A stretch of DNA of 13,235 nucleotides from an uncultured Collinsella sp. (GTDB lineage Bacteria > Actinomycetota > Coriobacteriia > Coriobacteriales > Coriobacteriaceae), in contig CATYIV010000043.1 of the NCBI GenBank assembly GCA_958407465.1, positions 1 through 13,235 on the forward strand, given 5' to 3'. The translations under genes and the position numbers were made by a program. Of the stretch, positions 4,431 to 13,235 are shown in pieces. How positions within the stretch are numbered: the stretch's first letter is position 1; the number at the start of each line of letters is the position of its first letter. The notes below the pieces were generated by a model. It was not told the DNA's origin. It made no database searches and saw nothing but the letters and a program-made list of their open reading frames with translations.

Positions 4431-4492
4431 CGCGGCGGCGCGCCTGACCGAACGAGGGTATGGGGACTCGTTCGGCCAGACGCGCCGCCGCG
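4431..4492 (-). repeat. 26-bp GC-rich hairpin between the MFS remnant and hisS
   Basis: Arms at 4431-4456 and 4467-4492 enclose a 10-base loop. On the minus strand every position pairs, including two G-T wobbles; on the plus strand those two are C-A mismatches, so the minus-strand RNA is the better-folded molecule. It begins 36 bases after the MFS remnant's stop and has no T-run behind it. It is therefore not a textbook intrinsic terminator, although it probably marks the 3' end of that transcript. Its base overlaps the expected -35 position of hisS. Confidence 0.6.
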
Positions 4493-5005: not shown

Positions 5006-5022
5006 CCGGCGCCGGGCGCCGG
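5006..5022. repeat. GC-rich perfect palindrome upstream of the MFS remnant
   Basis: CCGGCGCC and GGCGCCGG surround a single central G. It sits 28 bases upstream of the MFS ATG and touches the left end of hairpin element C. It could be a DNA-binding site or an extra cruciform next to the element. The function is unknown. Confidence 0.4.
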
Positions 5023-5106
5023 TAGTGCCCAAGATTGCCTTGAAAGACAAGGGCATAGGCCTTACGGCCATGCCCGCAGGCTTGAAAGGCAAGGTTGGGT
5101 GCTACC
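5021..5106 (+). repeat. Hairpin element C (structured repeat family)
   Basis: An 86-base imperfect hairpin between the M20D stop and the MFS remnant; its right arm contains the M20D stop codon. On the plus strand GGTAGTGCCCAA pairs with TTGGGTGCTACC through two wobbles. TTGCCTT pairs with AAGGCAA, then comes a tandem G-A/G-A internal loop (5042-5043 with 5084-5085). The apex is GGGCAT, a bulged A, GGCC, a TTAC tetraloop, GGCC and ATGCCC. The apical design matches element B in the same orientation. It lacks the 37-base 3' module that A and B share. The better-paired strand is antisense to both flanking genes. Confidence 0.65.
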
Positions 5107-6397
5107 GGTGGTCGGCGATATAGCCCAAAGCGACGGCGGTATAGGCCGCGGCGCCGAGAGGAAGCTCGGCATCGTTAAAACGTGCCTTGGGATGGTGCTG
5201 GGCAAAGTGTTCGTCCGTGTCGGTTACGGCCGCGCCCACGGTAAAGTACGCACTCGGAATCTCGCTCGAGATAAGCGCAAAGTCCTCACTCGCCATGGCA
5301 TGGAAAAGCGGCAAGAAAGCCACCTTGGGCAGCACTGCGCCCACGTAGCCAAGCGACGCCTGAGTCATATCGCTGTCGAGTACAAGCGGCGGAACATCCG
5401 AAAGCGTCTCGATGGTCGCCGGCGTACGATATGTTGCGGCAACGCCGTTAACGACCTCCGCGATGCGGGTCTTTAGGTGCTCCATGAGCTCAACATCAAA
5501 GCCGCGCAGCGTTCCCTCAAGCACGCAGGTGTCGGGGATGACGTTGGCCGCCAAGCCGCCGGCAAACTTACCAACGGTAAGTGCGACTTCCTTGGCCGCC
5601 GGCACCTCGCGGGAGATGAGCTCCTGAAGTGCCAGATGCACATGCACGCCGGCCGTGATGGGGTCGATGCAAATCTCGGGGCTCGAGCCATGGCCGCCCT
5701 TGCCTTGAAGCGTGATGCGAAAACCGTACACGCCCGAGAGCGCCGGGCTGCCGTAGAGCGCCAAACCAAGCGGCGACTGGCTATTGACATGCATGGCAAA
5801 GGCGACCTGAGGACGCGGGTTCTGCAGCAGACCGTCGGCGATGGCGGCGCGGGCACCCTCAAAGGTTTCCTCGCCCGGCTGGAACAGCAACTTAACCGTG
5901 GCGTTGGCATCAACAAGCTCTGCCTCGCGCGCTTTGAGCATACGAGCCGCACCAAGCAGCGCCGTCGCGTGCATATCGTGACCGCAAGCGTGCATGCAGC
6001 CGTTGGTGGATGCAAAGGGCTCGCCGGATTCCTCGGCAACGGGCAGGGCGTCCATGTCGCCACGGAGCATGATGACCGTACCGGCCTGCTCATTCGTGCA
6101 GACGCCATTACCCTGGGCCGCGGCGGCACCGGCGCCGACAAGGCCCACAACGCAGGAACCATCGACGAGCGTGGCAAACGGGATGTCCATCTCGGTCAGG
6201 CGCGCTTGGATATACGCAGAGGTCTGTGGGAGGCTATTACCCAGCTCGGGCATCTGGTGTAGATCGTGTCGCCACGCAGCGAGCTCGTCTGCAAAAGCCT
6301 GAGCTTCTGCAACAAGACCGTCACCGATAGCGGTCTGCACCGCTGCGGTGGCCTTGGGCGCTGATTGCGGTTGAAGATCGGACAAAGCTGGTGCCAT
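5102..6397 (-). CDS. M20D-family metal-dependent amidohydrolase
   Basis: This 431-residue cytosolic hydrolase belongs to the M20D peptidase family (hippurate, IAA-amino-acid and N-acyl-amino-acid amidohydrolases), which cleaves amide bonds of N-acyl or aminobenzoyl amino acids using two metal ions. Visible signatures are WRHDLHQMPELG at 42-53, RGDMDALPV at 112-120, MHACGHDMH at 135-143, LFQPGEE at 171-177, AMHV at 201-204, GKGGHGSSPE at 232-241, and the C-terminal MASEDFA and HHPKARFND. By family comparison the metal ligands would be Cys138, His140, Glu177, His203 and His401 or His402, with Glu176 as base. The ATG at 6397 has GGAGG six bases upstream; the frame stays open for 18 more codons but without a ribosome site. 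No signal peptide is seen. The exact substrate cannot be told. It is followed by element C and an MFS remnant. Confidence 0.93.
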   Translation of the reverse strand: MAPALSDLQPQSAPKATAAVQTAIGDGLVAEAQAFADELAAWRHDLHQMPELGNSLPQTSAYIQARLTEMDIPFATLVDGSCVVGLVGAGAAAAQGNGVCTNEQAGTVIMLRGDMDALPVAEESGEPFASTNGCMHACGHDMHATALLGAARMLKAREAELVDANATVKLLFQPGEETFEGARAAIADGLLQNPRPQVAFAMHVNSQSPLGLALYGSPALSGVYGFRITLQGKGGHGSSPEICIDPITAGVHVHLALQELISREVPAAKEVALTVGKFAGGLAANVIPDTCVLEGTLRGFDVELMEHLKTRIAEVVNGVAATYRTPATIETLSDVPPLVLDSDMTQASLGYVGAVLPKVAFLPLFHAMASEDFALISSEIPSAYFTVGAAVTDTDEHFAQHHPKARFNDAELPLGAAAYTAVALGYIADHR

Positions 6398-6427
6398 AGA
6401 TGCCCTCCAGTATCGTTTTTGCAGCAA

Positions 6428-6449
6428 GCACTTTGATAGCATAAAGTGC
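6428..6449. promoter_or_regulatory. Palindromic operator candidate at the M20D promoter
   Basis: GCACTTT and AAAGTGC form perfect 7-base arms around an 8-base centre, 30 bases upstream of the M20D ATG. The best -10 candidate, TATGCT on the minus strand at 6438-6443, lies inside the palindrome, with a weak -35 (CTTAAA) at 6460-6465. A protein bound here would block the promoter. The symmetry suits a dimeric repressor such as a TetR- or GntR-type protein, but no regulator gene is in the window. Confidence 0.5.
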
Positions 6450-6475
6450 AAGGTACTACTTTAAGGGCGAGGCAT

Positions 6476-6501
6476 AAAAAATGCCGCCCCGGGAGGGCGG
6501 C
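6476..6501 (-). terminator. Intrinsic terminator of the DMT permease gene
   Basis: GCCGCCC pairs with GGGCGGC around a 5-base loop, followed on the minus strand by ATTTTTTA. This is a textbook rho-independent terminator, starting 12 bases past the TAA stop of the permease gene. It separates that gene from the M20D gene. Confidence 0.92.
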
Positions 6502-6513
6502 GCAACAAGTTGT

Positions 6514-7497
6514 TTACAATTGCGGGCGCGGCTTTCGACGCAAAAAATCGAAGTGAGTCTCGCTCAAGATAATCGACAGGAAGATGAGCGCGAAGCCGGC
6601 GAGCAGGCGCGAGGTGAGCGCCTCCCCCATCAGCAGCACCGAGAACAGCACACCCGAAGGCGACTCCATCGAAAGGAGCAGCGAGCCCGTCGAGGCCGGG
6701 ACATGCGCCAGGCCGACGTTTTGGATGAGCAGAGCCACGCATGTGCAGCCCACCGAGAGAAACGCCATCGCAGTGATAAAGCTCGGCGTCCACACGGACA
6801 GAGGCGCTTGGGTCTCGAATAGCAGCGACGTTGCCAGGCTCAGCACGCCGTTGCCCACAAACATCCAAAACGTGATGACGTTGATGTCCATTTTGCGACC
6901 GTACTTGGCAGTCACCGCCATCTGGATGGCGAAAAAGACCGCACCCGCCAGCGTAATGACGTCACCGATGTTGAATTCAACGCTATCGAGCGCCACCAAA
7001 CCAATGCCCGCCAAGCACAGCAGTGCCGCGCCCAGGTTATAGCGGGTGAGTTTTTCGCCGCTCAGAAAATAGCTCGCGAACGGCACAAGGATGCAGTACG
7101 TGCCCGTCAAAAAAGCATTCTTGCCCGCCGTAGTATGTGCCAGACCGACCGTCTGCAACGCATAGGCCGCCCACATGAGCACGCCCATACTCAGGCCAAC
7201 GATCAGGTTGCGAGCGTTGAAATGTGCAATGATGCGCTTGTGGAAGACGGCAAACATGACCAACGCTGCGGGCAGAAAGCGTACATAGAGCAGCTCGAAC
7301 ACCGGAATGGTGTCGAGCGCATCCTTCATAGTGGTAAAGGAGTAGCCCCAGATAATCGCCACCGAAAGCAGCAGAACTTTCCAGAACAGCGGCGAGCGAG
7401 CGCCGGCGCCGCGGGAGGTGCCGCCCGCGCCTAGGTCCTCGCGAGCAACAGGGCTATCGGGCAAGTTTTCGATTTCGTTGGCAGCGTATTGGGCCAT
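6514..7497 (-). CDS. DMT superfamily permease (EamA type)
   Basis: This 327-residue inner-membrane protein has the two-repeat, ten-helix layout of EamA (drug/metabolite) transporters. A soluble N-terminal tail of about 37 residues comes before TM1 (LFWKVLLLSVAIIWGYSFT, about 37-55). The first repeat ends around 170 (CLAGIGLVAL) and the second begins with GDVITLAGAVFFAIQMAVTAKYG at about 178-200. Conserved EamA features include the W-G-x-x-F segment at 50-54, the helix with GKNAFLTGTYCILVPF at 125-140 and the E-S-P-x-G-V-L-F segment at 278-285. The tail FLRRKPRPQL is basic, as expected on the cytoplasmic side. The ATG has GAGG seven bases upstream. The gene is flanked by intrinsic terminators on both sides, so it is probably transcribed alone. 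The substrate cannot be told from sequence; amino-acid or metabolite export is usual. Confidence 0.93.
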   Translation of the reverse strand: MAQYAANEIENLPDSPVAREDLGAGGTSRGAGARSPLFWKVLLLSVAIIWGYSFTTMKDALDTIPVFELLYVRFLPAALVMFAVFHKRIIAHFNARNLIVGLSMGVLMWAAYALQTVGLAHTTAGKNAFLTGTYCILVPFASYFLSGEKLTRYNLGAALLCLAGIGLVALDSVEFNIGDVITLAGAVFFAIQMAVTAKYGRKMDINVITFWMFVGNGVLSLATSLLFETQAPLSVWTPSFITAMAFLSVGCTCVALLIQNVGLAHVPASTGSLLLSMESPSGVLFSVLLMGEALTSRLLAGFALIFLSIILSETHFDFLRRKPRPQL

Positions 7498-7564
7498 GGA
7501 ACATCCTCACACTCAAACTGGGCGTGGTGTCCGCACGCGTAAGGCTGCGTGCCGCCTCATGGTC

Positions 7565-7603
7565 AAATAAAAACGGGACGCGCCGGACCCCCGGCACGCC
7601 CCG
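7565..7603 (-). terminator. Intrinsic terminator at the end of the yhgE/Pip operon
   Basis: On the minus strand CGGGGCGTGCCGG pairs with CCGGCGCGTCCCG (13 bp, two G-T wobbles) around GGGT, followed directly by TTTTTATTT. It lies about 230 bases beyond the stop of the second YhgE/Pip gene, so element A would be inside that transcript's 3' untranslated region. It also insulates the DMT permease gene. Confidence 0.88.
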
Positions 7604-7659
7604 CTACTGTAGCAACAACCAAGCAACCCGTGCAATCCAGCCCACTAAAGCGTTTTGTT

Positions 7660-7810
7660 CCGCCGTTCTACCGAACGGCGGACCGGCCGACGCTGCGCGA
7701 GCCGCATTCACACCAATCTGACGTTCAATTTCAAGGGCGCGACCAGAAGGTCAGCGCCCTTTCATTTCACGTCACCTTGGCGCAAATGCGGCTCGCTCGC
7801 TGACATTGCC
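7660..7810 (-). repeat. Hairpin element A (structured repeat family, full-length copy)
   Basis: On the minus strand the order is a 16-base flank GGCAATGTCAGCGAGC (7810-7795), a 100-base imperfect hairpin (7796-7697), and a 37-base module ending in a 9-bp hairpin with loop GGTA (7681-7660). The large hairpin has outer arms GCGAGCCGCATT/AATGCGGCTCGC. Its apical stem is GACC-TTCT-GGTC at 7741-7752, with a bulged base on its 5' side. Two tandem G-A/G-A internal loops are separated by an AAT/ATT step (7762-7768 against 7725-7732). Three wobbles in the stem pair only on the minus strand. The flank and module match element B at 15/16 and 34/37 positions, while the hairpin arms differ completely in sequence. 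Confidence 0.75.
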
Positions 7811-7836
7811 GCAGCATCAGCGTTTACATTGTTGCT

Positions 7837-10026
7837 CTAGATTAATTTAGTACTCTCCAGCTTTTCGATGATCCAGTCGTTAGCTTTGATAACCGGACGG
7901 CGGAAGACGACGCCCAGGGCCAGCGACGGAATCAGGTAGCTCGCCAAGATACCCAGCTCAATCCAGTACTCCATATGGTAGGCACCGGCCATGGCGGCGT
8001 GCATGGCGTTGATGCCGTGAGTAAACGGCAGGAACGGGTAGATCGCCTGGAACACGGGGGCGGTCATCTCGATGGGGAACGTACCGCCCGAACCGCCGAC
8101 CTGCATGACCAGCAGCACGACGGCGAGGGCCTTGCCGATATCTCCAAACGATACCGTAAGCGTGTAGACGATATTGGAGAACACTAGACTCGCGACCCAG
8201 CCCGCCAGCACAAACTGCAGGGGATTGTCGCACTGGATGCCAAAGAACAGAATGTCGCCCGCGCACACGAGCGTTGCCTGCAGCAGAGCCAGACCGCCAA
8301 AGAACAGGTAGCGACCCAGGTAGATCTCGTGCAGGCGCACGGGGATGAGCTCGTTGATAAGCTCATCGTCAACCGAAACCTTCATCATGGCCGCCAGTAC
8401 GATCGAGCCGACCCATAGCGACAGAATCGTGTAGAACGGCGCCATAGCCGAGCCGTAGTTGCGGATCGGATAGACCGGCTTGCGATCGAGCGCAACGGGG
8501 CCGGAAAGCGACACGGCGAGGCCCTCGGGGTCGCTGCCAATCATTGTCTTAATCATGGCCAGGTCACCCGAGATCAGAGCGCTATCAAGCTCGTCCTTAA
8601 AGGCACTGATCTTGTCCGACGCCTCGCCCAGCTGATTGGAAGCCTTGTTGACCAGCTTTGCAGCCTTGGAGAGACCCTTCGCGAGCGAACCAGAGGCGTC
8701 GGTCAGACCGCTCACGGCGCTATCCAAGTCACCCGAGATACCGTTCAGGGAATCCAGAACGCCCGAAATGGTCTTCTTGAGCTCCTTGGCCTTAACCGAG
8801 AACGTAGAATCGTAGTCGGACTTGGCACCCGAGATACCCGCCTTGGCATCGGCGATGGCCTGGTCGACCTCGGCACGCGAATTGTTGACCTCCGCCATGC
8901 TGCCCGAAAGGGACTTTGCGGTCGCCGTCAGGTCCTTCGCATTGTTACGGTACTCCGCGGCAATTCTGCCCAGCGACGTCGCAGCGGACTTGAGGCCGTC
9001 TTTGAGCTTGTCATCACTCACCTGGTCGGCAAGGTTGCGGAGCCGATCGGCCATCGCATCGATATCGTCAGCACGCGTATTGAGCGCCGCTGCGGCTTCG
9101 TTGAGCTGAGACACCGTAAGGTCAACATGCTGATTCGCGGCATCGAATGCCTTCGCAAGCTCGGCGGACACGTTGTCGAACGAGCCCGCGCTTCCGTCAA
9201 TCGCCGCGTCAACGGCATCGCTGGCGGCCTTGAGCGCTTCCTTGGAATCATTGATTCCGTTCTTGGCGTGCTCCATCAGCTGCTTCGTCGACTCATCAAC
9301 GGTGCCCGTCTGCTTGAGCATGCCACCCGCCGATGTCAACGAATCGGACGTAGAGCTCAAAATGCCCGCGAGTGACGTCGCGCTCGCCTGAACGTCCTGC
9401 AGGTCCTCGACCGAATCGCCCAGTGTAGAGGACAGATTGGCGATAAAGTTGCTCACCTGGTCGGTGCTCATATAGTCGAGCAGGCTGGACACGGTCTTAA
9501 GGCCGATAGTCGTAATGGTCTTGGTAAAGGTCTCGTTGACCTGGCTCTGGACGGCGCTCGAGCCCTTCTCGGTCACGATCTGTGCGATGGCGTTGGCCTT
9601 CTGGTTCTCATAGAACTCGATATCGGCGTGCTTCACGTCGGTCGAGAAGAGCGTCATCATGTCTGCGCTAAAACTTTTAGGGATAACAACGGCCGCATAG
9701 TATGCGCCCGACTTAACGCCCTCAATCGCCTTATCGCGGTCGTTGAGGACGACCCAGTCGAAGTTCTCGTTGCCGCGCAGGGTGGCGGTTACGTTTTCGC
9801 CCACGTTGACCTCGACGGGAATCAGATCGCTCTCGTAGCCCTCGTCAGTGTTGACCACTGCAATTTTAAGGTTGCCGGTATTGCCGTAGGGATCCCAGCT
9901 TCCGGCGATGTTAAACCACGCGTACAGGCACGGCACGATGATCAGGCCCATCACAACAACCAAGCCGATCACGGAGCGGGACACGTTTTGGACATCGCGC
10001 TTAAACAGGTGCAGGATGTTTTTCAT
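7837..10026 (-). CDS. YhgE/Pip-family membrane protein (second of pair)
   Basis: This 729-residue membrane protein belongs to the YhgE/Pip family, relatives of ABC-2-type permeases that include phage infection protein and the EsaA component of Firmicutes type VII secretion. TM1 is at about 18-40 and is followed by the family motif SWDPYGNTGNLKIAVVNTDEG at 43-63. A long extracytoplasmic region rich in Ala, Ser, Asp and Leu (about 180-490) looks helical or coiled-coil. A C-terminal ABC-2-like block starts at YPIRNYGSAMAPFYT (519-533), with helices near 531-549, 572-595, 603-624, 630-648 and 688-708. It includes the GGSGGTFPIE motif at 644-653 and FTHGINAMHA at 668-677. The ATG directly follows the upstream stop (TAAATG), with AAAGGAGGTG at 10035-10044, so translation is coupled. 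No ATPase gene is adjacent. The transported substrate is unknown. Confidence 0.92.
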   Translation of the reverse strand: MKNILHLFKRDVQNVSRSVIGLVVVMGLIIVPCLYAWFNIAGSWDPYGNTGNLKIAVVNTDEGYESDLIPVEVNVGENVTATLRGNENFDWVVLNDRDKAIEGVKSGAYYAAVVIPKSFSADMMTLFSTDVKHADIEFYENQKANAIAQIVTEKGSSAVQSQVNETFTKTITTIGLKTVSSLLDYMSTDQVSNFIANLSSTLGDSVEDLQDVQASATSLAGILSSTSDSLTSAGGMLKQTGTVDESTKQLMEHAKNGINDSKEALKAASDAVDAAIDGSAGSFDNVSAELAKAFDAANQHVDLTVSQLNEAAAALNTRADDIDAMADRLRNLADQVSDDKLKDGLKSAATSLGRIAAEYRNNAKDLTATAKSLSGSMAEVNNSRAEVDQAIADAKAGISGAKSDYDSTFSVKAKELKKTISGVLDSLNGISGDLDSAVSGLTDASGSLAKGLSKAAKLVNKASNQLGEASDKISAFKDELDSALISGDLAMIKTMIGSDPEGLAVSLSGPVALDRKPVYPIRNYGSAMAPFYTILSLWVGSIVLAAMMKVSVDDELINELIPVRLHEIYLGRYLFFGGLALLQATLVCAGDILFFGIQCDNPLQFVLAGWVASLVFSNIVYTLTVSFGDIGKALAVVLLVMQVGGSGGTFPIEMTAPVFQAIYPFLPFTHGINAMHAAMAGAYHMEYWIELGILASYLIPSLALGVVFRRPVIKANDWIIEKLESTKLI

Positions 10027-12852
10027 TTATGCCTCACCTCCTTTAGAGTGCTTGCCAAGCGGGGTGGTGTCCCCGTCGTTTCCGCTTACGTTGTCAACGT
10101 CGTCGACATCTTGAGCCTTACGATGCGCACCGATATGCGGCAGACGGCTCGTGGGCTGTTCGCTGTCCTTGGTGCCCCGCTCGCTGGCGTTGAGACCAAA
10201 CATGCGACGGGCAGCAGGGATGGCAGCCGTGTGCTCGCGCATCTCGCGGCGAAGGTCCTCGTCCGAAAGCGCCGAGATACGCATCTGGGTATTGAGGCTC
10301 GCACGGATGTACTCGATGTTGATGAGCCAGCCACAGATGGCGATAACCGAAATGATCCAGATAACGAGCAGGATAATCTTGCCGTTATTGTCGATATCGA
10401 GCACCGTCGAGAGCACAAAGAGCAGGACCTGCACGCCTACCACGGCAGCAAAACCGCCCTTGATGTAGTACGGGTAGCGATGCTCAAACGCCACGGCATG
10501 ATCGAGCAGCTCGCGACGGTACGAATCGGAATCGAGCATGACGCGCATGGCCGTGCGCAGCGAATAGCGCTGGCGCGGCAGGTCGTTGGACTCGCAGATC
10601 ATGAGGCCCGTCGTGGAAAGCTGCTTATCAAAGAGCAGGTTAAGGTTGAGCAGCAGCGGACGCAGCTGCAGGCCGATAAAGAGCGCCACGATCAAGAACA
10701 CGCCCAGAATGCACAGGTTGAACAGGTAGTTGAACGAATACATGCCGCCGACCGTCTCGCGCAGCAGATTGATGCCGTAGGTAAAGGGCAGCAGCGGGTG
10801 CAGCCACTGGAAGAAGCCGGGCATCATCTCGATGGGGTACATGCCCGACGAACCCGGGATCTGCACGATGACGAGAATGACGCCGATAGCCTTGCCGATA
10901 TGCTTAAACGTGGTGGACAGCGCATAGATGATATTGACGTAGGTGAACGAAATGGCGATGCCGCCCAGCACGAACAGCAGCGGGCTGACGCACTGCACGC
11001 CAATCACCAGATCGCCTACCGTAACGATGATGGCCTGCAACGCGCCCAGGATCACCAGGAGCAACCAGCGGCCAAAGTAGCCCTGACGCGCGGTAAAGCT
11101 GCCGATGCCTTCGCGATCGACCTCGAGCTTGTAGATGGCGATAAGCACGTAGCCGCCCACCCAAAGCGCCAGGTTGGTATAGAACGGGGCAATGCCCGAG
11201 CCGAAGCTCTTAACCGGATAGATCGACTTGGACGCGAGCTCAACCGGAGATGCCATGAAATCTGCCACGTCATTGACATCGACGCCCATCAGATCGGCCA
11301 GCTCGCCCATGGACTCGGAGGTCTGCAGCGCCGCGATGTCATTGGCGGCGGTTGCAAGCTTGTCCTGGACCTTGGCAAGCGAGGAATCGGTCTGGGACAG
11401 CGTGGTCTTGGCCTGGCCGAGCGTAGCGCTAAGCTGCGCCAACGTGCCGCGCGCATTTGCAAGTGTAGGTGTCATACCCGAGACGATACCGGTCAGGTCG
11501 CCCGAAACGGCAGCAAAAGAGTCGAGCGCGCTCGAGGCCTTCGGCAGCGCGTTTTGGCCCAAGTCCGTCTGGGCTTGGCCAAGGTTGGTCGCACCGGTAT
11601 GAATTGCGTTATTGATAGCGTCACTGGCACCCGAAACAGCCGCTGCGTCATTCGCCATGGCGCTCGACTGCGCGGACAGACCGTCCTTGATGCTCTGAAG
11701 CTTTTCATTCTGCTCTCGAAGCAAATCGATGGTCGATACAATGCGCGCGTCAATTTCCTCGGAACCTGTCGACGTGTCATTGGCGAGAATCTCCAAGTGC
11801 CCGATAACGGCCTTATTGTGGTCGATCGTCGCTTGAAGAGACTCGAGCGAGTTGTCGATACGGGTGGTCGTAGATGTGACCGCGCCCGTCAGCTTGCCGA
11901 TGGCAGCGTTCGCAGAGGCCGACGTCTTGGTGAGCGCAAGGCTGCCTTCCGAGAGCGCCTTGGAGAGCGAGGTGATGGAGTTGCCCGCCGTGGTGCGAGC
12001 TTCGCTCAGCAGGTCGTTGCCCTGGGAGATCGCCTGCGTCAGCGACGGTGCCTGGCCTTGCAAGCCGGCAAGTGCCGCATCAGCCGAGGCGATAGCGCCG
12101 CTCGTCTTATCGATGGCGGCATTCATATCGCCAATCGAATCGCGCACCTCGCCCAAGGTGTCGGACGCCTCGGACACCGAACTTGCCAGCGAGTCCTGAG
12201 TCTGGGTTGCCTTGTCCTTTAAATCGACACCGGCATCCTTGGCGATACCGGCAACAGTCTTGCCTACCGTAGAGACAAATTCCGAGTTGATCTGCTCCTC
12301 GATGGTGTTTGCACCGGTATCGGTAACCTTGGGCGCAATGGCGCTCTTCTTCTCATTGACGTAGTACGTGAGCTTGGGCTGATGGTAGTTGCCGTCGAGC
12401 ATCGAAACCAGGTTATCCGAGAAGTTCTTGGGAATCACGATAGCGGCATAGTACTCGCCGCTCTCGACGCCCTCCTTGGCATCGGCCGTCGAGTCGACGA
12501 ACGTCCAGCCCAACTGATGATTCTCCTTGAGCTGGTCGACCACTTTGTCGCCAGCGTTGAGCTCACCCACCAAGTCGTTTTGGGTGCCTCGATCGTTGTT
12601 GGCGATAGCAATCTTGATGCCTTGGGTGTTTCCATACGGATCCCAGTTTGCCACGATGTTATACCAGGCATACAGCGAGGGAATAACGCACACGCCTAGG
12701 GTAACCACCAGGGCGACGGGGTTCACAAGCAGTCGCTTAATGTCGCGCTTAAATATCGCAAAGGACACCTTTGCATTGGATAGTTTGCTGCCGAGACTCA
12801 CGCTTGGACCATCCATCCTGTCGTTAAATCGAATCGTACTATCGACAACCAT
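10027..12852 (-). CDS. YhgE/Pip-family membrane protein with extra C-terminal membrane domain (first of pair)
   Basis: Paralogue of the next gene, 941 residues. TM1 is at 45-65, followed by NWDPYGNTQGIKIAIANNDRG (69-89), the same family motif. A long helical extracytoplasmic region runs from about 200 to 515, rich in Ser, Ala, Thr and Gln. The ABC-2-like block starts at IYPVKSFGSGIAPFYT (544-559), with helices near 556-575, 594-615, 622-643, 653-666 and 708-730, and contains PGSSGMYPIE (666-675). Unlike its partner it continues for about 200 residues: a cytoplasmic segment (740-795), two more helices (798-818, 824-844), and an acidic, disordered-looking tail. The final codons contain the ribosome site of the next gene. 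The start is uncertain: the ATG at 12852 has no ribosome site, and ATG 12816 or GTG 12801 are alternatives that keep the whole conserved domain. A promoter and a possible operator lie at 12908-12943. Confidence 0.91.
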   Translation of the reverse strand: MVVDSTIRFNDRMDGPSVSLGSKLSNAKVSFAIFKRDIKRLLVNPVALVVTLGVCVIPSLYAWYNIVANWDPYGNTQGIKIAIANNDRGTQNDLVGELNAGDKVVDQLKENHQLGWTFVDSTADAKEGVESGEYYAAIVIPKNFSDNLVSMLDGNYHQPKLTYYVNEKKSAIAPKVTDTGANTIEEQINSEFVSTVGKTVAGIAKDAGVDLKDKATQTQDSLASSVSEASDTLGEVRDSIGDMNAAIDKTSGAIASADAALAGLQGQAPSLTQAISQGNDLLSEARTTAGNSITSLSKALSEGSLALTKTSASANAAIGKLTGAVTSTTTRIDNSLESLQATIDHNKAVIGHLEILANDTSTGSEEIDARIVSTIDLLREQNEKLQSIKDGLSAQSSAMANDAAAVSGASDAINNAIHTGATNLGQAQTDLGQNALPKASSALDSFAAVSGDLTGIVSGMTPTLANARGTLAQLSATLGQAKTTLSQTDSSLAKVQDKLATAANDIAALQTSESMGELADLMGVDVNDVADFMASPVELASKSIYPVKSFGSGIAPFYTNLALWVGGYVLIAIYKLEVDREGIGSFTARQGYFGRWLLLVILGALQAIIVTVGDLVIGVQCVSPLLFVLGGIAISFTYVNIIYALSTTFKHIGKAIGVILVIVQIPGSSGMYPIEMMPGFFQWLHPLLPFTYGINLLRETVGGMYSFNYLFNLCILGVFLIVALFIGLQLRPLLLNLNLLFDKQLSTTGLMICESNDLPRQRYSLRTAMRVMLDSDSYRRELLDHAVAFEHRYPYYIKGGFAAVVGVQVLLFVLSTVLDIDNNGKIILLVIWIISVIAICGWLINIEYIRASLNTQMRISALSDEDLRREMREHTAAIPAARRMFGLNASERGTKDSEQPTSRLPHIGAHRKAQDVDDVDNVSGNDGDTTPLGKHSKGGEA
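10035..10044 (-). promoter_or_regulatory. Ribosome binding site embedded in the upstream gene's last codons
   Basis: AAAGGAGGTG on the minus strand encodes part of the last residues of the first YhgE/Pip protein. It stands ten bases before the ATG of the second, which abuts the preceding TAA. This is a very strong anti-16S match and supports coupled, roughly equimolar synthesis of the two proteins. Confidence 0.85.
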
Positions 12853-12907
12853 TGTAGTAGGCGCTTTAACGTCTCAAAGCACAATGGTGTTGAGTTTTGC
12901 GGGTAGC

Positions 12908-12913
12908 AATATA
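12908..12913 (-). promoter_or_regulatory. -10 box candidate for the yhgE/Pip operon
   Basis: TATATT on the minus strand predicts a start of transcription near 12901, about 49 bases before the ATG at 12852. The -35 position at 17-base spacing is TGTACG (12931-12936), a 3/6 match that overlaps the dyad at 12932-12943. Confidence 0.45.
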
Positions 12914-12931
12914 CTACGAAGATGAGTTAAC

Positions 12932-12943
12932 GTACAGATGTAC
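12932..12943. promoter_or_regulatory. GTACA-N2-TGTAC dyad over the -35 region
   Basis: The site reads GTACAGATGTAC and contains TACAGATGTA, a fit to TACANNTGTA, the core operator known for BlaI/MecI/CopY-type winged-helix repressors. Its overlap with the expected -35 box of the yhgE operon suits repression. A ten-base dyad can occur by chance, and no such regulator is visible in the window. Confidence 0.4.
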
Positions 12944-13001
12944 AGTATCCTAAATTTCAGCAGGTCACAAAACCACAACCCGCACAAATTAGCAATTCAA
13001 A

Positions 13002-13057
13002 TAGTCATCGGGGACGTTCTTAAACGACTAGTCAAACAAAAACGTCCCCAATGACTA
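13002..13057 (-). repeat. 20-bp inverted repeat with GGGGAC arms (REP-like)
   Basis: Arms at 13002-13021 and 13038-13057 match at 18 of 20 positions; the two exceptions become G-T wobbles on the minus strand, so the minus-strand hairpin is complete. The 16-base loop holds a second perfect palindrome, GACTAGTC (13026-13033). Arms built on GGGGACGTT are reminiscent of the repeats flanking REP-associated Y1 transposases in many bacteria, but no transposase is present here. The orphan copy may be a remnant or a REP-like element. Confidence 0.6.
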
Positions 13058-13085
13058 CTTAGGACCACGGCAACGTCGATGTTTT

Positions 13086-13235
13086 GGCAATGCCAGCGAG
13101 CGGGCGCCAGAGCGAACAAATTGGCATGAAAAGAGGACGGCATAGACCTTCTGGTCATGCCGTCCTCTTTGAATGACAAGTTGTTCGCTCTGGCGCCCGC
13201 GCAGCGTCGACTGGTCCGCCGTTCGTTAGAACGGC
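13086..13235 (+). repeat. Hairpin element B (structured repeat family, runs to window edge)
   Basis: On the plus strand the order is the flank GGCAATGCCAGCGAGC (13086-13101), a 101-base hairpin (13100-13200), and the 37-base module (13199-13235), which ends in GCCGTTC-GTTA-GAACGGC. Outer arms of 20 perfect base pairs (13100-13119, 13181-13200) enclose a second stem. That stem has a tandem G-A/G-A loop (13128-13129 with 13171-13172), two single purine-purine mismatches, an 11-bp run starting AAGAGGACGG, a bulged A at 13144, and the GACC-TTCT-GGTC apex at 13145-13156. It matches element A in layout, length (150 against 149 bases from flank to module) and flanking sequence, in inverted orientation. 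Confidence 0.75.

Follow-up and report, generated by a model that had tools for sequence, protein, structure and literature searches.

The 13,235-nucleotide stretch of an uncultured Collinsella sp. analyzed here (assembly GCA_958407465.1, contig CATYIV010000043.1; hereafter the window) holds three long hairpins, A, B and C, and these are confirmed as members of one real hairpin family, far beyond what chance would produce. The family is held together by covarying stems and by a tandem G-A internal loop that is nearly invariant on one strand, the G-A strand. The first-pass annotation, a description of the DNA made from its letters alone, did not anticipate three features: copies move or recombine, most of them lie against a stop codon in a single orientation, and the searches made found them only within the order of the window. 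We consider it an evenly balanced proposition that the folded single-stranded DNA (ssDNA) of the G-A strand acts as a mobile repeat resembling the repetitive extragenic palindromic (REP) sequences and is recognized by an enzyme.

Three hairpins of one family in the window

The three hairpins were described at first as folding on the minus strand (A) or the plus strand (B and C), with a common apex, a tandem G-A/G-A loop and, on the 5' side of the apical stem, one base left unpaired. All of this is borne out. The fold z-scores are -11.0 for A, -14.1 for B and -8.1 for C (200 dinucleotide shuffles each), and none of the 200 shuffles per hairpin reaches the native fold stability. The CCAA-GR/GR-TTGG step ascribed to A and C is also present in both. 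Three points of that description had to be revised. A does contain two G-A loops, but the inner one is GA/GAA and not a symmetric GA/GA, and B has A-T/A-G at the position of the GG/GA of A. The extents of the hairpins were re-set to the cores listed here, which were converted from matches in the own genome (G000) to R1. This model was built from 19 own-genome copies (alignment A3) with a structure of 41 pairs, with A and B inside the training set and C outside it.

7689..7802, minus: core of hairpin A (R1 positions 1-113, 114.1 bits), with two G-A loops; training row
7803..7834, minus: 5' module of A, directly past the end of the open reading frame (ORF) 7837-10026 (minus); from sequence compared with orthologous sites
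7683..7688, minus: remainder of the A linker between the long hairpin and the short hairpin P3; from sequence
7659..7682, minus: P3 short hairpin of A, loop GGTA on the G-A strand; from folding
13094..13207, plus: core of hairpin B (R1, 123.2 bits); from folding; training row
13072..13093, plus: 5' module of B; from sequence and alignment
13215..13235, plus: P3 of B, loop GTTA, cut by the window end and continuing in locus L001
5007..5119, plus: core of hairpin C (R1, 57.6 bits, E 3e-11), a divergent subtype without P3, outside the training set
G000:C1:1113928-1127162, minus: the window in its own genome
G000:C1:1119361-1119474, plus: core of A in its own genome
G000:C1:1113956-1114069, minus: core of B in its own genome
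G000:C1:1122044-1122156, minus: core of C in its own genome

The ORF that precedes A is presumably YhgE/Pip-like, and the core of C overlaps the stop codon of ORF 5102-6451 (minus), which we take to be M20-peptidase-like. The 5' module, the 3' linker and P3 of A and B were missing from the first description. Beyond the hairpin itself, A and B have in common the 5' module, which reads AACGYCGATGTTTTGGCAAYG... here and CGCCGCAGGTTGAGCATAAG... in some other copies, the motif CAGCGA before the long hairpin and GCAGCGTCG after it, followed by P3. A closing helix and a small junction hairpin are also predicted in both by folding. At the gathering score no Rfam family matches the window, in agreement with the earlier statement that no named family could be assigned, and the one weak match on B (STnc380), at 21.1 bits, stays far below its cut-off of 60.

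Architecture and covariation

The complete element is about 170-240 bases long and comprises the 5' module, the long hairpin of about 113 bases, a linker and usually P3; the conserved sequence preceding the hairpin is (G)TCAGCGAG. Among the 19 own-genome copies of A3, 96.5% of cells are paired and 23 pairs have changed on both sides, giving a covariation score of 0.455, compared with 0.069-0.101 when the partners are slid by 1-3 columns. A second alignment was drawn from 30 genomes outside the genus and holds 66 matches at 65 loci (25 genomes, 16 genera, 63 distinct copies); L347-L350 are not included, and family f6 is thus absent from it. Here 92.2% of cells pair, two-sided changes occur in 40 of the 41 pairs, and the score is 0.664 against 0.066-0.092 for the slid controls. 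Since this alignment was fitted to the model it is biased toward the structure, but model fitting is unlikely to be the cause of the covariation, given the low scores after sliding and the folds obtained independently of the model. Common descent or common constraint of the copies is regarded as shown.

Conservation of the loops was followed in the 63 distinct copies from other genera and in a Collinsella-dominated set, in which 224 matches were reduced to 179 by removing opposite-strand echoes and to 141 unique copies, the 19 training rows included; the same genome was sometimes sampled twice, and identical sequences were collapsed while near-identical ones were kept. The central tandem G-A/A-G loop is found, on a single strand, in 63/63 and 140/141 copies, respectively. 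The second loop has G-A in 119 and G-G in 115 of the 141 copies, and in many copies from other genera it is a shifted GA/GA. The basal GA/GCA loop is almost invariant in both sets. Unpaired bases occur at columns 22 and 51, both in the 5' arm; their identity varies and they are at times missing. Among the 141 copies the apical loop is TTCT in 67, TTTT in 25 and TTCG in only 8.

A P3-like hairpin was recognized in 128 of 157 distinct 3' flanks, with the loops GGTA (64), GTTA (25), GTA (15), GGCA (11), GGA (3), GTCA (3), GATA (2), GGAA (1) and four others. Tetraloops of the form GNYA thus account for 105 of the 128 and GNRA for one. In the other genera a P3-like hairpin was obtained for 40/63 copies, most commonly with GTCA, GGCA or GTA, a few of these being probably false P3s. 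Separately, the apical stem-loop of one copy (L012) is inverted relative to the rest of that copy, an arrangement that template switching within the hairpin would be expected to produce.

The first-pass annotation had itself allowed that the likeness might be chance or simple palindromic decay, should covariation be lacking and the G-A loops not be fixed to one strand. The opposite was found, in the own genus and in 16 other genera. No point in favor of chance likeness or of decaying unrelated palindromes was encountered; this explanation is refuted by the recovery of C at E 3e-11 with a model untrained on it, by the covariation and by the invariant loop, and we give it practically no probability.

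Copy number and range

The search for further copies proposed with the first description yielded members of the family in the genus and in other genera of the order. With B as a BLAST query, 32 matches were obtained in the own genome. R1 gave 44 matches at E <= 0.001, corresponding to 33 places after the removal of 11 opposite-strand echoes (counted by hand; one place, at 877709, is partial). Excluded from the training were L012, L019, L023, L025, L030 and C, as inverted-apex, partial, near-duplicate or divergent copies, and additional copies came to light only afterwards. Tandem pairs of the element were also observed in two genomes (L081 1374-1612 and G022:C1:303717-303949).

In a sample of relatives the element is present in 30 of 58 genomes, of which 29 are among the 35 of the genus and one among the 23 of other genera. 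Copy number within the genus is uneven, with 28-40 matches (echoes included) in 15 of the 35 genomes and none in six. In a larger sample of the order it was found in 68 of 297 genomes and 19 of 107 genera, and in a phylum sample in 9 of 396 genomes, all from the own family of the window; the scan output does not give the share of these 396 that lies outside the order. Both scans are lower bounds because just 12 and 9 candidates per genome, respectively, were scored and the filters were stricter. When the genomes of named species were scanned with a sequence pattern, at least 120 stretches matched, and among the matches listed all are from Collinsella except L184, a Coriobacteriaceae metagenome-assembled genome. 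The same pattern matched no viral contig and no phage record, and in a plasmid collection its sole match is one 900-kb C. aerofaciens record; a phage or plasmid origin was dropped on these grounds.

Folding strand and position at genes

If one strand folds, its mismatches should be biased toward wobble pairs. On the G-A strand of the 141 unique copies, G-T/T-G pairs number 137 and A-C/C-A pairs 67, of which 27 fall at one ambiguous pair beside a bulge; the corresponding numbers in the 63 copies from other genera are 130 and 57. Folding of the opposite strand would reverse this ratio of about 2:1, and the G-A strand is therefore the folding strand. Copies matched by R1 on both strands score 78-125 bits on the G-A strand and 34-58 bits as the echo, a difference of little weight, as the training copies of R1 were all aligned on the G-A strand.

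The position relative to genes was read for 42 copies (28 from the own genome, C, and 13 from other species of the genus); individual cases may be wrong because the gene calls came from a home-made codon-usage scorer. In 37 of the 42 the gene on the 3' side is directed into the element, so that the G-A strand is antisense to it. Its stop codon overlaps the core or lies within 46 bases of it in 33 of these and is 85-173 bases away in the other four. Distances of 31-46 bases mostly go with P3 and distances of at most 9 bases mostly with its absence. The gene on the 5' side is scored '-' in 27 copies and '+' in 15. A is one of the five exceptions: the YhgE-like ORF lies before it and has its orientation. 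An annotated C. aerofaciens record illustrates the usual arrangement, with 8 bases between the end of the match and the stop codon of an SDR gene, which is followed on its own strand by tgt. The element is thus located mostly right after stop codons and antisense to the gene that ends there.

Such a location is what one would expect of a 3' untranslated region or terminator hairpin, in which the T-C strand, as mRNA, ends or stabilizes the transcript of the abutted gene. The post-stop position and orientation (37/42 by direction, 33 within 46 bases) favor this explanation, as do six loci (L090, L130, L153, L164, L169 and L183) where, by eye and without an Rfam search of those loci, the element abuts the 3' end of an apparent RNase P RNA gene; abutting a protein stop codon is therefore not obligatory. 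Yet the wobble asymmetry indicates the other strand, the mRNA form would bear U-C/U-C loops, T runs of at least four follow the hairpin on the T-C strand in only 7/141 copies, and close relatives have sites free of the element. We regard a terminator or stabilizing role as improbable. In a 100-kb region of the own genome (0.79-0.89 Mb) where the element directions flip, no dnaA, DnaA boxes or skew turn was detected.

Gain, loss and exchange of copies

Orthologous sites show that copies have been gained or lost, nested and swapped. The end of one gene bears the element or part of it in 21 close genomes, with differing subtypes, P3 arms and 5' flanks, whereas nine more distant species show no element within the 230 bases displayed (the comparison covered the fetched loci, and 12 further genomes with the gene were left out). 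Among 21 close loci of site A (L276-L296), as read by eye, eight have A, two have a copy in opposite orientation and nine have a scar that retains sequence resembling the 5' module; L294 has lost the long hairpin alone, and L296 is nested. Copies that end within the apical part of an older hairpin were seen by eye in L250, L258 and L160 (L114 and L258 are probably one and the same copy, judging by contig position).

Three candidate empty sites were aligned (L053, L043/L156 and L198), of which L053 is the cleanest. In the empty state (L130 and L097) two convergent genes have overlapping stops (TTAA or CTAG), and in the filled state (L053, L153 and L169) an insert of about 190-240 bases is present and both stops are kept, compatible with duplication of TA, TAG or CTAG. 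L043 versus L156 represents an internal hairpin deletion, and L198 differs over a longer stretch.

We also compared 148 copy pairs with both flanks orthologous, after removing pairs with a 3' flank at or above 98.5%; the pairs are not independent. In 86 pairs the hairpin is at least 95% identical (mean 98.1%; the sequence next to it on the 5' side averages 87.8% and the 3' flank 94.0%), and in 78 of these 86 it exceeds both neighbors. In 52 pairs hairpin identity is below 85% while the 3' flank averages 93%, and 10 pairs are intermediate. Copies are therefore of two sorts, those kept with high fidelity and those exchanged completely for another. Both patterns can arise by conversion between copies, and the pair test does not separate transposition from selection on each copy. 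P3 hybrids with arms of two types (e.g., L195 and L165) reveal recombination inside the element.

RNA or DNA as the acting form

The structure, the choice of strand and the loop conservation all uphold, within the own genus and 16 others, the original suggestion of a structured RNA or an element recognized as ssDNA. As an RNA, the G-A strand of each copy would be transcribed from its own promoter, by read-through or as an antisense transcript, and the folded product would stop antisense transcription into genes, protect RNA ends or bind a protein, the copies being spread by recombination. The strong covariation and the G-U-type tolerance on the G-A strand suit such a multicopy RNA, tandem sheared G-A pairs are a classical RNA motif, and the junction predicted in A and B (a closing helix with a small hairpin) is in keeping with it. 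Hairpins that are better conserved than their flanks in 78/86 same-subtype pairs would also suggest a function of each copy.

Other observations point the opposite way. Sigma-70-like pairs, the only promoter type covered, are not enriched on the G-A strand upstream of the element: over 136 regions the best score averages 7.25, versus 7.39 for shuffles and 7.49 for the other strand. In the fixed 17-base stretch after P3, the longest T run is at most three in 137/141 copies, unlike the pattern of an intrinsic terminator. The nearest gene on the 5' side does not read toward the element in 27/42 copies, and the window is without an Rfam match. Very stable DNA mini-hairpins are formed by GNA and GNNA loops when a sheared G-A pair closes them, and the P3 loops, being GNYA or GNA, are hardly ever of the GNRA type favored by RNA. 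The promoter, T-run, P3-loop, TTCG and 5'-gene data are leanings toward ssDNA and not proof of it, and a structured RNA remains in our judgment a serious though rather unlikely alternative.

Candidate enzymes

REP sequences are moved by REP-associated tyrosine transposases (RAYTs) in one further explanation, under which the present hairpins would be giant REP elements. They are indeed extragenic, palindromic and repeated, and within the genus a RAYT-like protein occurs in 34/35 element-bearing genomes versus 3/8 element-free ones, degenerate genes counted. Outside the genus the excess is small (19/33 versus 95/221). Overall, RAYT-like proteins are present in 151 of 297 genomes of the order and Y1_Tnp in 37 of 58 relatives, but 15 of 68 element-bearing genomes lack a RAYT-like protein at E 1e-10, among them G192 (21 matches), G180 (17) and G271 (15), numbers that may include echoes; such carriers may have lost a RAYT. 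When R1 was run on 20 fetched Y1/RAYT regions, one weak match (27.7 bits) and no strong long hairpin was obtained. RAYT as the mover was set aside for these reasons, and giant REP elements seem to us very improbable.

The three RAYT-like genes of the own genome likewise speak against a RAYT as the mover. Two (L227 1715-2767 and L228 1664-2718) each lie between inverted copies of a short repeat of their own. The third, a 340-aa Y1/RAYT-like ORF (L226 1799-2821, minus; G000:C1:2143801-2144817) in what we take to be the suf locus, by eye has neither the second HUH histidine nor the usual tyrosine motif. It is open in most close genomes and has internal stops in 6/21 close matches, for which it was dropped as a partner. 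RVT_1 was searched for as well. It occurs in 14 of 58 genomes of the relatives sample but gave no match in G000, and an origin from a retron or group II intron was rejected on that account.

A shorter dispersed palindrome (GTAGTCATTGGGGACGTTCTT...AAGAACGTCCCCAATGACTAC type) occurs at 12999-13060 of the window and also upstream of copies such as L002 and L025. It lies close to the 5' side of several elements and has the look of a RAYT-type REP.

A possible mode of action

In the favored explanation, a mobile ssDNA repeat, the acting form would be the G-A strand, folded while single-stranded. An enzyme would recognize the folded strand by the sheared G-A loops and by the extrahelical bases, would move or exchange copies and would place them beside stop codons, the least harmful spots. 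The working mode would be like that of REP/RAYT hairpins or integron attC sites. Going further, the element may be a Coriobacteriales-wide mobile element that consists only of a folded DNA strand and is mobilized or swapped at stop codons by a new class of enzyme, which we put forward tentatively and think somewhat unlikely. The long hairpin with its obligatory tandem sheared G-A loop, together with the GNYA/GNA mini-hairpin, would then be the whole element, an equally tentative proposal.

Several points weigh against a mobile ssDNA. None of the arguments for DNA over RNA is direct, and tolerance of G-U pairs would be just as natural in an RNA. A single fully empty site was read, and the apparent duplication there may be selection because both genes need their stops. 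No terminal inverted repeats were seen by eye, and no constant target duplication was defined. The 86/148 well-kept hairpins could mean a host function of each copy or conversion between copies, and subtype swapping could be gene conversion instead of transposition. Lastly, no mobilizing enzyme was found among the candidates searched (Y1_Tnp, RAYT-like and RVT_1), and the RAYT-free carriers count against a RAYT in that role.

Comparison with known systems

Closest in kind to the element are REP/RAYT repeats and attC sites. Like REPs and bacterial interspersed mosaic elements, it is a dispersed, extragenic, palindromic and imperfect hairpin, and REPs are often located 3' of genes. It differs from REP/RAYT systems in its invariant G-A loop, in not requiring a RAYT and in a single architecture over the 17 genera examined; flanking of RAYT genes by the element was not encountered in the 20 regions mentioned above. 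The REPs in Table 1 of PMC2817692 are 21-37 bases long and most start with GTAG or GTGG, whereas the hairpin described here has about 113 bases and no conserved start of that kind.

Short, non-coding, multicopy hairpins with polymorphic insertion are also typical of miniature inverted-repeat transposable elements (MITEs) and of palindromes derived from IS200-IS605, and the element is similar to both in these respects. Unlike MITEs, it has no visible terminal inverted repeats, no defined target and no parent transposase among those searched.

An attC site is located after a gene. According to PMC3053210, it is an imperfect palindrome of 57-141 bp in which the bottom strand folds and extrahelical bases matter, and the element has a similar size and form. 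The folded G-A strand is antisense to the 3'-side gene (37/42), the unpaired columns 22 and 51 are one-sided, and the resemblance in bottom-strand folding after a gene is real. Visual inspection of the consensus, though not a systematic scan, showed no RYYYAAC/GTTRRRY boxes, and instead of cassette arrays there are single copies beside seemingly ordinary chromosomal genes.

In the literature searched, no description of this repeat was found. A survey of candidate structured RNAs in human microbiomes reports 250 palindromic motifs among 3161, some of which may be REP sequences; its main text has a single mention of Collinsella, in connection with a 51-bp motif that precedes a gene for a ribosomal protein, and its supplementary motifs may include the present repeat (PMC8040213). 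The element is strongly constrained and structured, belongs to common human gut bacteria and has no Rfam match in the window. Its invariant G-A loop makes a sharp prediction about a binding partner, and its polymorphic copies document, in natural populations, the movement of hairpin repeats. Should the element act as ssDNA, it would represent a further system beside REP/RAYT, IS200/IS605 and attC; if RNA, a large family missing from Rfam.

Elsewhere in the window, at 4431-4492, a 26-base inverted repeat with arms 92% complementary and a 10-base spacer lies upstream of an ORF that is presumably hisS-like.

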